NCBI RefSeq assembly: GCF_016342705.1
Contig: NZ_JAEINV010000003.1
Location: 1-64,000, forward strand
Reading direction: 5' to 3'
DNA: 64,000 bases
Source: Lutibacter sp.
GTDB taxonomy: Bacteria; Bacteroidota; Bacteroidia; Flavobacteriales; Flavobacteriaceae
The notes below the pieces were generated by a model. The model made no database searches and was not told the origin of the DNA. It saw only the letters and a list, made by a program, of their open reading frames with translations. Below, piece after piece: positions 39,288 through 44,337 of the stretch. The number at the start of each line of letters is the position of its first letter. Positions within the stretch are counted from its first letter, which is position 1. The position numbers and the translations under genes were made by a program.

Positions 39288-39313
39288 TGTGACTTAAATT
39301 AGTGTTTAGTGTC
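39288..39313 (+). promoter_or_regulatory. Putative ECF-sigma promoter of the GIN-domain operon
   Basis: TGTGAC (39288-39293), 16 bases, TGTC (39310-39313), ending 27 bases before the ATG at 39341. It resembles ECF-type -35/-10 elements (TGwAAC-N16-CGTC in Gram-positive model systems) and recurs before the genes at 41906 and 42082. A housekeeping-type -7 box (TATATTTG, 39255-39262) is also present upstream. Confidence 0.5.
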
Positions 39314-39340
39314 TAATTTTATATAATTTAAACTTCAAAG

Positions 39341-40165
39341 ATGAAAAAAATAGTTTTAATGCTAATTTTAGTGATTTGTATAACTAATGTATTTGCGCAA
39401 AAAAAAGCAAAATTAAAGGGAAATAAAATAGTGACGGATGTATTTAATACCTTAGAAGGGTTTAATGCTGTTGATATTGGGGATAATTTAAAAGTTACAA
39501 TTTCTCAAGCAGGGAATAACGGATATCATTTAATGGCAGATGAAAATTTGGTGAGTGATATTAATTTTCAAGTTATAGATAGTGTTTTAAAAATTTACAC
39601 TACTTCAAACATTGTTTCGAAGAAAAAACTTGAAATTGATTTAACAGTAAAAAATATTTCGAATTTAACATTAAGAGATGATGCTAAATTGACGTGTATT
39701 AGTAAAATTTACGCAAAAAGTTTAACCTTTGCAGCTTTTGATAATGCTTCATTTAAACTAGATTTAAAGGCTGATAATTCTTATTTTAGGTTGGCGAAAA
39801 GTGTGTCGGGTGAAATTAGTTTAAACGGACAAAAAGCGGTGATGATGTTTGATGAAAATTCTTTTATGAAAGGAAATGTTGTTTTAGAAGAGTTAGAATT
39901 GAAAATGACTGACAGATCTGACCTAGATTTGTCTGGAGAAGTGAACAATTTACAATTTAATGGAACTGGTTCGGGTACGTTAAAAGGAAAAGATTTAAAA
40001 ACAACAAATTCAAATGTGAATATAGCCGAATCTGCACTTGTACATATTTATACTAGTAAACTTTTAAAAATATATGCAAAAGATAAAAGTAAAATATATG
40101 TGTATGGAAAGCCAGAAATTAAAGTGGAAGGGTTAAATGATAAATCTGAAATAATTAAAAGATAA
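39341..40165 (+). CDS. GIN-domain (DUF2807) exported protein
   Basis: 274 residues with a signal peptide (about 1-19, ending VFAQ). The body has the head-GIN pattern, a right-handed beta helix of short repeats: LEGFNAVDIGDNLKVTISQ, VKNISNLTLRDDAKL, SLTFAAFDNASFKLDL, DRSDLDLSGEVNNLQFNGTGSGTLKGKDL. DUF2807 members are often called putative adhesins but are generally uncharacterised. It leads a three-gene unit with lapA-like and a hypothetical gene. Confidence 0.83.
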   Translation: MKKIVLMLILVICITNVFAQKKAKLKGNKIVTDVFNTLEGFNAVDIGDNLKVTISQAGNNGYHLMADENLVSDINFQVIDSVLKIYTTSNIVSKKKLEIDLTVKNISNLTLRDDAKLTCISKIYAKSLTFAAFDNASFKLDLKADNSYFRLAKSVSGEISLNGQKAVMMFDENSFMKGNVVLEELELKMTDRSDLDLSGEVNNLQFNGTGSGTLKGKDLKTTNSNVNIAESALVHIYTSKLLKIYAKDKSKIYVYGKPEIKVEGLNDKSEIIKR

Positions 40166-40169
40166 ACGA

Positions 40170-40382
40170 ATGAAATTTAAAACTTTTTTAATTGTAGTAT
40201 TTATTTCACTTATTGTAATTTTTTCAATACAAAATGTAGAAATAACAGATATTAAATTCCTTTTTTGGAAATTATCTATTTCAAGAGTATTAATAATTTT
40301 AGGAAGTTTTGCTATTGGAATTTTAGTAGGTGTGTTAATTTCAATGAAAAAAAAATATTTAAAAAAAGATAGTAATGGCTAA
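40170..40382 (+). CDS. LapA-family small membrane protein
   Basis: 70 residues, two membrane helices (about 4-22 and 38-58) around the loop QNVEITDIKFLFWKLSISRVL, the DUF1049/LapA signature (SIQN...F). In E. coli LapA takes part in control of LPS synthesis. It is four bases after the GIN-domain gene, and its last eight bases overlap the next start. Confidence 0.82.
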   Translation: MKFKTFLIVVFISLIVIFSIQNVEITDIKFLFWKLSISRVLIILGSFAIGILVGVLISMKKKYLKKDSNG

Positions 40383-40818
40383 AATAAAATCTGTTCTTTT
40401 AGGTGCAATCCCGGAAATTATAAATGTAGGTGATGAGGTGACTGATATTATTGTTCATACAAAAATTGAATTTCATCCGTTGGATATTTCCCTTCAAATG
40501 GAATATCAATTATTCTTGTTTGTATATGATATAAATGGTGAAATAGATATCCCTGTTATTATTGGAAATTGGAATGAAACTCAGGTTTATGGAGTTTCAA
40601 ATGATAGAAATGACCACCTTTTAGGGAAAGTTAATATTTTGATAACTGCAGAAAATAATCAATTAGATTTTGAAACACCAATAGCTTTAAAATTAGGAAA
40701 TTTAGAAGAAGGAGATTCTTATTTTTCCAGAAAGCTAGAGGTATTTGCAACATTAATTCCTGCTATTGGAAGAGCTTCAGCTTGGTCGGACTCATTTGAA
40801 GCTAATTTAATTTTTTAA
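40375..40818 (+). CDS. Hypothetical soluble protein
   Basis: 147 residues without a signal or membrane segment. Its sequence (LLGAIPEIINVGDEVTDIIVH, FLFVYDINGEIDIPVIIGNWNETQV, LLGKVNILITAENNQLDFE) suggests an all-beta fold. No family is recognised. The ATG lies inside the end of the LapA gene, so the two are translationally coupled. Confidence 0.6.
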   Translation: MAKIKSVLLGAIPEIINVGDEVTDIIVHTKIEFHPLDISLQMEYQLFLFVYDINGEIDIPVIIGNWNETQVYGVSNDRNDHLLGKVNILITAENNQLDFETPIALKLGNLEEGDSYFSRKLEVFATLIPAIGRASAWSDSFEANLIF

Positions 40819-40820
40819 AT

Positions 40821-41906
40821 TTAATTGTTAAATATTTTTATTTCCACTCTTCTAGCTTTGGCTTCATTACCTTCATTGTAATCTATTCCAAAGGAATTTG
40901 AGGAAATTCTTTCTGCTTCAATACCGTTTTCAATTAGGAAATATTTCACTGATGCTGTTCTTTTTGAAGACAAGATTTTATTGTAGTTTTTATTTCCAGA
41001 ATTACTTGAATATCCTTTTAAATAGATATGAATTAATTTGTTTGGTAAAGCTATGTTCAACAATTCTTTTAAAGTTTCCTGGTTTTCATAACTCAAGTTT
41101 GAGATGTTATTTTCAAATAAAAGAATCTTGTTAAAAGCAATTTTTTGAGGTATTTTTTTAATTGAATCTGAAACAATAGCATTCTTATTTAATTCAATAG
41201 AATTTTTTAAGATGCTTTTCTGAATTGAATCTTGTGTCTTTAATTTATTTTCTAAAACACTTATTCTTTCATTTGAATTCAAAATTGTTAAGGAATCAAC
41301 TTTTTTAATACTTTCCTTGTTTTGCAGCACATAAATAGTATCGGTTTTATATACAAAAGTCTCTGAAATTATTGGTTTTTGTTCAATCTTTTTTGAATCA
41401 ATAGTGTTTTTAGCTTCTATAGGTTTTAGTTCATCAACCTTATGAATGCTATTTTTATTTAATATAAATGATGTAATTACTGCTTTTAATTCTTTAATCT
41501 CAGTTTGAATGCTATCTAAATCTGCTTTATTTACTAAAACGGTATTTTCTATATCCGTTACAACTAATTCTTTTTTATATTTTAGCTGTTTTTCAGTTTT
41601 AAATTGAGGTTTTTTACTTAAAAATGAATCATTTTTTATTTCAACAATTTTTGAATCTAATTTTACAGGATTGTTTTTAACTAATGAATCTTGTTGTAAA
41701 TCAAGGCTATTATTTATAAAAGTTTTTTCGTTTTTCTGATCATTTTTATAGGATGCTACTTTGTGCTTCTTCAACATTTTTGTAAAAGATGATAACTGTC
41801 CTTCAGAAACTTTTATAGTAGCATTATTTTGTATTTGCTGCCCCAATATAGATGAGCTTAAAAATAAAATGAATAAAGTGATAGCTGAATTTAAATATGT
41901 TTTCAT
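40821..41906 (-). CDS. OmpA-family protein with a long coiled linker
   Basis: 361 residues: signal peptide (about 1-22, ending LGQQ), a long Lys/Asp/Asn/Ser-rich middle with short coiled-coil stretches (about 45-260), then a C-terminal OmpA-like domain (KILLFENNISNLSYENQETLKELL, IHIYLKGYSSNSGNKNYNKILSSKRTASVKYFLIENGIEAERISSNSFG, ARRVEIKI) expected to bind peptidoglycan. It has no N-terminal barrel. It is divergent from the barrel/coiled-coil gene at 42082 and has the same ECF-like promoter. Confidence 0.82.
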   Translation of the reverse strand: MKTYLNSAITLFILFLSSSILGQQIQNNATIKVSEGQLSSFTKMLKKHKVASYKNDQKNEKTFINNSLDLQQDSLVKNNPVKLDSKIVEIKNDSFLSKKPQFKTEKQLKYKKELVVTDIENTVLVNKADLDSIQTEIKELKAVITSFILNKNSIHKVDELKPIEAKNTIDSKKIEQKPIISETFVYKTDTIYVLQNKESIKKVDSLTILNSNERISVLENKLKTQDSIQKSILKNSIELNKNAIVSDSIKKIPQKIAFNKILLFENNISNLSYENQETLKELLNIALPNKLIHIYLKGYSSNSGNKNYNKILSSKRTASVKYFLIENGIEAERISSNSFGIDYNEGNEAKARRVEIKIFNN

Positions 41907-41932
41907 GAATTAATCTATATTTTTTTAGTTGA

Positions 41933-41958
41933 GACACAAAAAATTAAATTATGTCACA
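41933..41958 (-). promoter_or_regulatory. Putative ECF-sigma promoter of the OmpA-family gene
   Basis: Minus-strand TGTGAC (plus 41953-41958), 16 bases, TGTC (plus 41933-41936), ending 26 bases before the ATG at 41906. Same spacing as at 39288 and 41987. Confidence 0.5.
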
Positions 41959-41986
41959 TCTAAATTATAATTTTAATAGTATTAAT

Positions 41987-42012
41987 TGTGACTTTTGTTA
42001 TTAATTTGTGTC
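41987..42012 (+). promoter_or_regulatory. Putative ECF-sigma promoter of the barrel/coiled-coil gene
   Basis: TGTGAC (41987-41992), 16 bases, TGTC (42009-42012), 69 bases before the ATG at 42082. The third copy of the motif within 2.8 kb; it and the minus-strand copy stand back to back. Confidence 0.48.
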
Positions 42013-42081: not shown

Positions 42082-44337
42082 ATGAGAAAAATATTTTTAG
42101 TGCTAATTGCTTTTTTTGGACTTACTGTAGCTAATTCTCAAGTGAAAGATATCAGTTTCACATTTTCACCATCTGCTGAATATACTTGGTGGGATGCTAA
42201 AGCTGGATTTAATGATGGAACTTTAATTGGTGGAAAATTGGGTTTTGGTTTTGGTGAATATATTGAATTAAGAGGTGTGTATTTGCAATCATTAGATTTG
42301 ACAACTAATTTTGAAAATTTTGGATTAACAAATTTTGATGCTACTTTATTTACGCAACAAAATGCTAAATTAACTAGATGGGGAGGAGAATTTAAGGCGA
42401 ATATTGGCACAAAAAAATTAATGCCTTATTTAACACTAGGAACAGGAGTTCAAAATATTGAAGTAAACGCAACTAATTTTGAACAAATTTATGGAACTGT
42501 AGGTTTGGGTTTTAAATTTAATATTGCAAAAAGGGCTGTTTTATCTGTAGAAGCTAAAAATACTACCTATAATTTTAATGCTGGTTCAAATTTATTAAGT
42601 ACAGTTGATAAAATTTCTTTTGGTGTTTCAGATGCAGATTTTTCTACTGAAAGTTTGAGTAACTGGGCAGTTTTGGGTTCATTACAATTTTATTTAGGTG
42701 GTAGAAAGCCAGGAACACTATCAGAATTAGATGAAGCTTATTTAAATAAGTTTAAAGGTGGTTTTAAAGGATTGCAATTAGTTGTTGAGCCAAGTATTGC
42801 TCATATTTCTTTTGATGAAAAGTCGCTTTTACGCGATACATATTTTTTAGGAGGTTATGTTGGCTTAGATTTTAATGAATATATAGGGTTAAGAGGTTTT
42901 TACTTTAAAGGAACTGTAAATGATGAAATATCAACAAGTTTTGACAATTTAGCCATGTATGGTGTAGAATTTAGAGCGCGATTAAATGATGGAAATGGAG
43001 TAACTCCATATTTAATTTTAGGAGGAGGTTACTTAAATGCTGCAGACTCTTATTTAGGAAAAAATGATTTAAATGTTAAAAGCGGCGAGTTTGGATCTGG
43101 TGGATTAGGTTTAAATATTCCTTTAGGTAGAAGAGTATTAATTTCAGGTGGATTAAGAGCAATATTAACATCAGGTGATGATATTTCAAACATTTCTGCA
43201 CCAAATCAAATTCAAACTCATATGATGTATAATGCAGGTTTGAAATTTACTTTAGGAAAAAAATCAAAATCACCAAATGAGGTTTTTGATACAAATATTA
43301 AAAGTGAGGAAAAATCTCAATCAGCAACAAATGATTTGAAAATTCAAAAATTAAAGAATGAATATTCTTTAAAGTTAGCAGTTCTAGAGGAAGACTTAAA
43401 AAAGGCCAATCAAGAAAAAGATGTTAATAAAGCTATTGAGCTATTAGAAGAGAAAAATGATCTTAAAACGGCTTTAAAAGAAATTAATAAAGTTTCTGAA
43501 ATACAAGTTGAAAAAAATATAGAAAATAAAACGCCTCAGCAGGAGACTATTATTCAAATGACACCTGCAGAATTTGAATCGTTAATTGATCGTATTTTAA
43601 AAGGATTAAATGAAAATTCAGACGGGAATGTTCAAAAATCAGAAGTAATAGAAAGTAAAGCAATTGATTCTTTAAATAAAAGAATTGAAATGCTAGAGAA
43701 AATATTTTCAGAATCAAAAAAAACAGCAACTCAAGAATCAGAAATTAAAGATATAAATGTAACTAAGGATAATAAGAAAGAAAATAAAGAGGTTAAAAAA
43801 TCTAAATCTGAAGATCGCTTAAAAAATATGGATGATGAAATTGAGTTGAAATCTAATGAGATTAAAAATAAAGAAACAGATACTTTAACCATAAAAAAAG
43901 AAATAGCTGATTTACAATCTGATGATTCTTCAATTGAAAAAAACGAGAAACTTTTAAAGTATGAGTGGTCAAATTTGTTTTTTGGATATGATTTTTCAAA
44001 TTCAGGTTATTTAAATGCAGGAATTAGATCGCATTTTAAAATTACTAAAACTAATTTAATATTTATGCCTGAAGCTTTTGTGGGCTTTGGAGATACTACA
44101 TATTATGGTGTTTCAGGAAATATAATTTATTCAGTTAATTTAAAGAATCAAAACGTAAAACCTTATTTTGGGGCAGGAGTAGGAGCACTGCATAACGGAA
44201 ATGATTTTAAAGGAATTTATAATGCAATTTTAGGTGCCAACCTTCCGGTAATTAGTGATAATTTATACATTGATTACACTATGAGAAATACATTTGACTA
44301 TAATCAAATTTCTATTGGTTATAAACTACCTATTTAA
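42082..44337 (+). CDS. Multi-barrel outer-membrane protein with an internal coiled coil
   Basis: 751 residues. A signal peptide (to about 20, NSQ) is followed by two similar barrel-like segments: about 25-215 (FSPSAEYTWWDAKAGFNDG, YIELRGVYLQSLDL, PYLTLGTGVQNIEV) and about 235-395 (VEPSIAHISFDEKSLLRDT, YIGLRGFYFKGTVND, PYLILGGGYLNAAD). Residues about 410-640 are a Lys/Glu-rich coiled coil (LEEDLKKANQEKDVNKAIELLEEKNDLK). A third barrel-like stretch (640-751) ends the protein. The arrangement barrel-barrel-coil-barrel is unusual; the function is unknown. Confidence 0.75.
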   Translation: MRKIFLVLIAFFGLTVANSQVKDISFTFSPSAEYTWWDAKAGFNDGTLIGGKLGFGFGEYIELRGVYLQSLDLTTNFENFGLTNFDATLFTQQNAKLTRWGGEFKANIGTKKLMPYLTLGTGVQNIEVNATNFEQIYGTVGLGFKFNIAKRAVLSVEAKNTTYNFNAGSNLLSTVDKISFGVSDADFSTESLSNWAVLGSLQFYLGGRKPGTLSELDEAYLNKFKGGFKGLQLVVEPSIAHISFDEKSLLRDTYFLGGYVGLDFNEYIGLRGFYFKGTVNDEISTSFDNLAMYGVEFRARLNDGNGVTPYLILGGGYLNAADSYLGKNDLNVKSGEFGSGGLGLNIPLGRRVLISGGLRAILTSGDDISNISAPNQIQTHMMYNAGLKFTLGKKSKSPNEVFDTNIKSEEKSQSATNDLKIQKLKNEYSLKLAVLEEDLKKANQEKDVNKAIELLEEKNDLKTALKEINKVSEIQVEKNIENKTPQQETIIQMTPAEFESLIDRILKGLNENSDGNVQKSEVIESKAIDSLNKRIEMLEKIFSESKKTATQESEIKDINVTKDNKKENKEVKKSKSEDRLKNMDDEIELKSNEIKNKETDTLTIKKEIADLQSDDSSIEKNEKLLKYEWSNLFFGYDFSNSGYLNAGIRSHFKITKTNLIFMPEAFVGFGDTTYYGVSGNIIYSVNLKNQNVKPYFGAGVGALHNGNDFKGIYNAILGANLPVISDNLYIDYTMRNTFDYNQISIGYKLPI

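Follow-up and report, generated by a model that had tools for sequence, protein, structure and literature searches.

Which regulator acts on the three copies of TGTGAC-N16-TGTC that lie in front of three envelope-related transcription units of Lutibacter sp.? They are located in the first 64,000 nucleotides (nt) of contig NZ_JAEINV010000003.1, a stretch referred to here as the window. The first-pass annotation had taken them for promoters of an extracytoplasmic function (ECF) sigma factor controlling these surface genes together, perhaps as an envelope-stress response. In this study, the motif was followed through the genome, the genus and further Flavobacteriaceae. The three repeats are very probably promoters of one ECF sigma factor encoded outside the window (G000:C34:152620-153183), with a probably autoregulated operon and a putative regulon of envelope proteins and candidate small RNAs (sRNAs).

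A motif with strict spacing

The exact pattern is present three times in the window, against 0.04 copies expected, and a pattern scan of the whole window detected no further full copy. The positions (Table 1) agree with those first annotated, as do the distances from motif end to start codon, which are 27 nt for the GIN-domain gene (start at 39341), 26 nt for the OmpA-family gene (41906, minus strand) and 69 nt for the barrel gene (42082). Dinucleotide shuffles of the window contained at most one copy and none of 100 reached three, so the window count lies above all of them. Ordinary flavobacterial promoters carry a TAnnTTTG box. No such box occurs in the 70 nt that follow each of the three window sites, in line with the earlier statement that they are of another type.

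The genome (G000; 3.63 Mb, 35 contigs) was searched with the reversed pattern as control. The exact pattern was found six times, three of them inside the window, and the control once. Relaxing it to TGTGAC-N14..18-NGTC gave 16 matches versus 21 in the control and thus no overall enrichment, yet eight of the 16 have N16 (N14, N15, N17 and N18: 1, 2, 3 and 2), and the signal therefore resides in the strict spacing. Each of the eight N16-NGTC sites is paired with a plausible product: the GIN/LapA unit, the OmpA-family gene, the barrel gene, a DUF3078 gene starting 49 nt downstream of its site (L005), a small membrane protein gene 31 nt downstream of a site with a weak GGTC -10 element as judged by eye (L024), the ECF operon, and two units devoid of open reading frames (ORFs; L001, L006). 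Outside the window, this list covers TGTGAC-type sites only, to the exclusion of AGTGAC-like variants.

An ECF operon behind the same motif

The candidate cognate sigma factor gene is the first of an apparent operon and is preceded by TGTGAC-N16-AGTC, 27 nt before its TTG start. The genome has 15 matches to sigma-70 region 2, among them this protein of 188 amino acids (aa). The protein contains regions 2 and 4 only (PF04542, 3.3e-13; PF08281, 1.9e-12), which at a length of about 190 aa is the build of an ECF sigma factor; TIGR02937 (sigma70-ECF) matches above its cut-off, and a search of solved structures returned ECF sigma factors. The next gene is a 70-aa ORF lacking a family match, followed by that of a 274-aa MscS-like protein (PF05552, PF00924). 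The 70-aa protein was modeled as two helices (mean predicted local distance difference test score, pLDDT, 75.6; predicted template modeling score, pTM, 0.39) and has 1183 relatives; among the 120 matches listed, every named one is hypothetical or uncharacterized.

With one genome scanned per species, at least 446 ECF relatives were found, and the best 80 loci, from Lutibacter, Tenacibaculum, Polaribacter, Algibacter, Psychroserpens, Winogradskyella and others, were used for counting. A bipartite upstream site with at least 8 of 10 letters is present before the sigma factor's own gene in 80/80 loci (within 170 nt before the match; 43 with 10 letters, 33 with 9, four with 8). It lies 18–124 nt before the ECF match with nearly fixed spacing. 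In control stretches farther upstream, 8/10 letters were reached in 8/80 loci and never more. The small ORF is found in 79/80 loci (59 by the pattern M[ED]NPFK, 20 variants by eye; in one locus the contig ends), and an MscS-like gene in 71/80; the nine loci without it are eight from Polaribacter and one at a contig end.

A promoter matrix was trained on 64 distinct N16 ECF-promoter sites from outside Lutibacter, and its informative blocks are GTGAC and GTGTC. Applied to the window, it picks exactly the three sites (scores in Table 1); the next match scores 2.9, leaving a gap of more than 20 bits, and the highest value reached by any of 60 simulated windows is 20.4. DGTGAC-N15-GTGTC was counted in ten genomes from seven other genera that had been selected for the presence of the ECF gene; it occurs 70 times there, against once for the reversed control.

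Within the genus, orthologues of the ECF gene are present in 14 of 36 other genomes (E ≤4.4e-60; next match 2e-24), and in the loci read the motif stands 22–30 nt ahead of the start; its spacing in G002 is N15. The exact pattern has 68 sites versus 13 control matches in the 15 genomes with the ECF gene (ECF+), and 32 versus 25 in the 22 without it (ECF−). For sites ending in GTGTC the numbers are 58 and 8, or 46 and 8 after subtraction of 12 promoters of the ECF genes themselves. The motif at all 80 ECF loci, the choice of the matrix in the window and the enrichment in ECF+ genomes support the first-pass proposal of ECF control, and the operon is probably autoregulated. In G008 (L048 / L189), the sigma factor gene has an in-frame stop, while promoter site, small ORF and MscS gene are retained; sRNA A, described below, is missing there.

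Transcription units in the window

The features of the window are listed in Table 1. The 147-aa gene is probably the third gene of the GIN/LapA unit and co-transcribed with the LapA gene, because its start overlaps that gene. For the 751-aa barrel protein, NCBIfam matches to OMP_myx_plus and PorG were far under the cut-off. The OmpA promoter is overlapped on the opposite strand by a 9/10 match (41930-41955, plus) directed towards the barrel gene; the motif is partly self-complementary, and this match has a matrix score of only 2.9.

Table 1. Predicted promoters and genes of the three transcription units in the window.
Feature	Position	Strand	Support
ECF-type promoter (-35 TGTGAC, -10 [G]TGTC) of GIN-domain/LapA unit	39288..39313	+	matrix score 24.0
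GIN-domain (DUF2807) secreted protein, 274 aa	39341..40165	+	PF10988, E 5.7e-31
LapA-domain membrane protein, 70 aa, gene 2 of GIN unit	40170..40382	+	PF06305, E 8.5e-10
147-aa protein, no Pfam match, start overlaps LapA gene	40375..40818	+	ORF
OmpA-family outer-membrane protein, 361 aa	40821..41906	-	PF00691, E 5e-12
ECF-type promoter of OmpA-family gene	41933..41958	-	matrix score 28.3
ECF-type promoter of barrel/coiled-coil gene	41987..42012	+	matrix score 28.8
751-aa protein, probably outer-membrane beta-barrel with coiled coil	42082..44337	+	no Pfam match

Genes behind the motif in relatives

Targets in relatives were taken from 40 stretches and from 63 of the 70 sites in the ten genomes of other genera, the remaining seven being ECF promoters. 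Sites precede OmpA-family proteins of the PEPGKCYV type in Lutibacter, Algibacter, Polaribacter, Tenacibaculum and Psychroserpens. Other genes behind sites encode further MscS-like channels, DUF937, LysM, dodecin and DUF2853 proteins, an M48 protease and, in a single case, an aquaporin. Of 13 target proteins of relatives searched against Pfam, one, which is lipoprotein-like and comes from G002, gave no match. By a script rule, 42 of the 63 sites have an ORF start within 250 nt and 21 have none, and four fall within ORFs of 150 aa or more; some sites are therefore due to chance. In two genomes (L096 in G022, L108 in G009), sites precede a very short similar ORF (about 45–50 codons, by eye), a possible small-protein target.

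Comparison of orthologous upstream regions gave a mixed result for the window units. G014 has a site 32 nt before the start of its DUF2807 (GIN) gene, an exact OmpA site at the same place as in the window, and also a DUF3078-gene site. The barrel gene was compared in the five other genomes that have it (G002, G006, G011, G014, G022): a weak site is present in G014, G002 has a site before a gene that lies upstream of the barrel gene in the same apparent operon, and the motif is missing in G011, G022 and the ECF− genome G006. The conservation expected from the first-pass annotation thus stood in part. DUF3078 was considered as a core target and dropped, with a site in 5/13 ECF+ genomes.

Evidence against one sigma factor, and other sigma factors

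Several observations weigh against the assignment of the window sites to the MscS-linked ECF sigma factor. As judged from the upstream sequences, control of the three window units is conserved in part and target turnover is high: the site before the barrel gene of G014 reaches only 8/10 (N15), the genomes lacking the motif at this gene include two that are ECF+ (G011, G022), and DUF3078 sites of 9–10/10 letters, seen in 5/13 ECF+ genomes, have a counterpart in one of eight ECF− genomes (G024, N15). The genus counts are also to be read with care, given that the ECF genes' own promoters account for 12 of the 58 GTGTC-type sites, that the genomes are related and were counted without tree correction, and that six of the 22 ECF− genomes are 62–89% complete. 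Site-like sequences occur in G024, which has no ECF orthologue, and G013 retains motif sites though its ECF operon is gone. Finally, nine of the 80 ECF loci have no downstream MscS gene, so the operon does not require the channel.

Both the ECF gene and its MscS gene are missing from G013 and G030, and the ECF promoter region still lies beside rpoD. This promoter remnant is intact in G013 and has a decayed -10 element in G030; likewise, at the place of sRNA A the promoter is intact in G013, decayed in G030 and missing in G031. The pattern can be read as recent loss of the sigma factor followed by decay, although G013 is equally a counter-example.

G013 would also fit another ECF sigma factor, or several sharing the sites, and 15 matches to sigma-70 region 2 leave room for one. 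At L009 (G000:C13), an ECF gene has TGTAAC-N16-TGTC 20 nt before its start and is followed by a gene with a signal-like start; at L013 (G000:C12), a third ECF gene has an upstream TGTTAC-N16-CGTC, again with N16 (by eye). Such similar sites make cross-recognition possible, which likewise counts against exclusive control by one factor. The fourth base of the -35 element (G), however, sets the motif apart from the L009 and L013 sites, and the sole one of the 16 TGTGAC-N14..18-NGTC sites before a sigma factor gene belongs to the MscS-linked ECF. A GTGAC-type site is present at all 80 orthologue loci, and motif counts drop where this gene is missing. Control of the window sites by another or a shared ECF factor is thus unlikely; the L009 factor possibly has a regulon of its own, a sister to this one that differs in the fourth base of the -35 element. 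A gene start resembling type II-C Cas9 (by eye) was seen downstream of an ECF gene at L011 (G000:C23:101664-104873).

Candidate small RNAs

The two ORF-less units of the genome are 90–120 nt long and end in terminators. The first, sRNA A, is located between genes named by eye as dnaJ-like and LpxH-like. Among the 12 ECF+ genomes with the LpxH-like gene, a promoter site is present at this place in 11, as AGTGAC in G035, and missing in G008. In five of the 12 (G009, G011, G025, G028, G032) the unit is doubled, each copy with promoter and terminator. The second, sRNA B, adjoins a gene of G000 that looks icd-like by eye, and its surroundings resemble those in G008, G014, G028 and G035; it was compared by eye and short pattern. 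A script detected a perfect terminator hairpin with T-run at 10 of 16 class A sites, one of them from the ECF− genome G013, 74–110 nt from the presumed start, and at 4 of 5 class B sites, 95–128 nt from it; at the remaining sites, hairpins recognized by eye contain G-U pairs or mismatches. When 14 sRNA A units are aligned, pairing of the terminator stem is kept through two-sided changes in 7/8 pairs. The longest ORFs within 13 sRNA A units have 3–27 codons and are mutually dissimilar.

Terminator units with a similar GTTTGGTTAG block are present in Tenacibaculum skagerrakense and Polaribacter porphyrae, and three tandem sites are found in each of T. skagerrakense (L357) and Psychroserpens luteolus (L371). 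A search of 11 loci with Rfam (E up to 1) gave four matches, none at gathering score. Two of these overlap sRNA A units and were taken as chance: DUF3800-I at L103 998-1133 (31.8 of 44.2 bits, E 0.45) and Phe_leader at L110 1255-1312 (28.4 of 55 bits, E 0.98). Hfq was found above the Pfam cut-off in 0/31 genomes, with one weaker match below. At L120 and L123 (G019, G036), a site precedes an ORF-less inverted repeat (AAAGCTATGGG...CTCATAGCTTT) with G-rich runs (by eye), possibly a third RNA type.

The units might be mere terminators of neighboring genes, with promoters there by chance. The sRNA B terminator adjoins, and could serve, the convergent icd-like gene, and one or two chance sites are expected per genome. 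Against this stand, for sRNA A, the duplication of promoter together with terminator, the promoter in 11/12 ECF+ genomes and the maintained stem pairing, which make the explanation quite improbable. An earlier view of the C8 and C33 sites as chance was likewise dropped once the sRNA units and the relatives' copies were compared. The ORF-less units are treated as candidate sigma-dependent sRNAs.

Discussion

In the weakest alternative, the housekeeping sigma factor is recruited by a response regulator or LytTR-type protein bound to a direct repeat with a 20-bp period (TGTGAC...TGTGTC). This reading could draw on the similar half-sites 20 bp apart, and is very improbable given the lack of TAnnTTTG after the window sites, the low number of distinct sites followed by this box within 60 nt (5 of 208 in the loci at hand, versus 23 in the upstream control), the nearly fixed spacing 18–124 nt before ECF matches, and the association of the motif with the ECF gene.

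Under control by the MscS-linked ECF sigma factor, the protein would recognize a -35 GTGAC and a -10 GTGTC at fixed spacing and would be held by the 70-aa protein acting as anti-sigma factor. Membrane tension, or hypo-osmotic or envelope damage, may be sensed with the MscS-like protein and would free the sigma factor. This would raise transcription of its own operon and of outer-membrane and cell-wall-associated proteins, namely the GIN/LapA, OmpA-family, barrel and DUF3078 genes in this genome and, in relatives, also MscS-like channels, aquaporin, LysM proteins and M48 protease; an envelope-stress role would fit these targets. The sigma factor would also drive short terminator-ended RNAs, which are probably regulatory sRNAs.

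The closest described counterpart is Pseudomonas aeruginosa SigX (ECF102). According to PMC8999054 and PMC7641640, SigX is linked with the small soluble CfrX (84 aa) and the MscS-like channel CmpX and tied to OprF, autoregulation is considered possible, and a 'mechanosensing complex' is proposed; the former describes SigX as the only studied mechanosensing ECF case. The genetic link of sigma factor to small protein and channel is found here in 79/80 and 71/80 loci; the resemblance is one of gene layout. The NCBIfam SigX model (PRK09640) is the second-best match of the ECF protein (87.6 bits, cut-off 194) and not diagnostic, because it is hardly above other ECF models (86.8, 85.0). Unlike the SigX system, the present one belongs to Bacteroidota, with three genes in one apparent operon, the ECF gene first, a defined promoter motif and sRNA-like units.

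Enterobacterial sigma-E regulons include the sRNAs MicA and RybB. A sigma-E regulon with the sRNAs FoxI and FoxJ is described for Fusobacterium nucleatum in PMC11005410. In common with them, the present system combines an ECF factor whose targets include outer-membrane proteins with a putative noncoding arm. It differs in that no RseA-type anti-sigma gene was seen by eye in 8.5 kb around the ECF gene, no Hfq was found above the cut-off in the 31 genomes and no Rfam family at gathering score in the 11 loci.

Flavobacterium psychrophilum SM6 also has ECF-type promoters, one of them before the putative regulatory RNA Rfp11 (PMC9723704). Their -10 element is described there as a CGT box, unlike the GTGTC found here, and the targets comprise several components of the type IX secretion system and one ECF/anti-sigma pair. 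None of the words MscS, mechanosensitive and TGTGAC appears in the main text of PMC9723704. In the accessible parts of the open-licence literature, including PMC12045153 and PMC10861873, we found no ECF-MscS system or such sRNAs in Bacteroidota.

There is about an even chance, in our judgment, that the system constitutes a family-wide envelope-tension response of the Flavobacteriaceae, in which an ECF sigma factor freed by a 55–75-aa anti-sigma factor under an MscS-like channel would drive outer-membrane proteins, channels and fast-evolving tandem sRNAs without Hfq, as an independent counterpart of Pseudomonas SigX and of the enterobacterial sigma-E noncoding arm. To our knowledge, the sensing of envelope damage in Bacteroidota is poorly known. 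A conserved operon of sigma factor, tiny partner and channel with a sharp motif makes mechanosensitive transcription control testable outside Pseudomonas, sRNA candidates can be named in a group without recognized Hfq, and the motif offers a readable regulon for hundreds of genomes.

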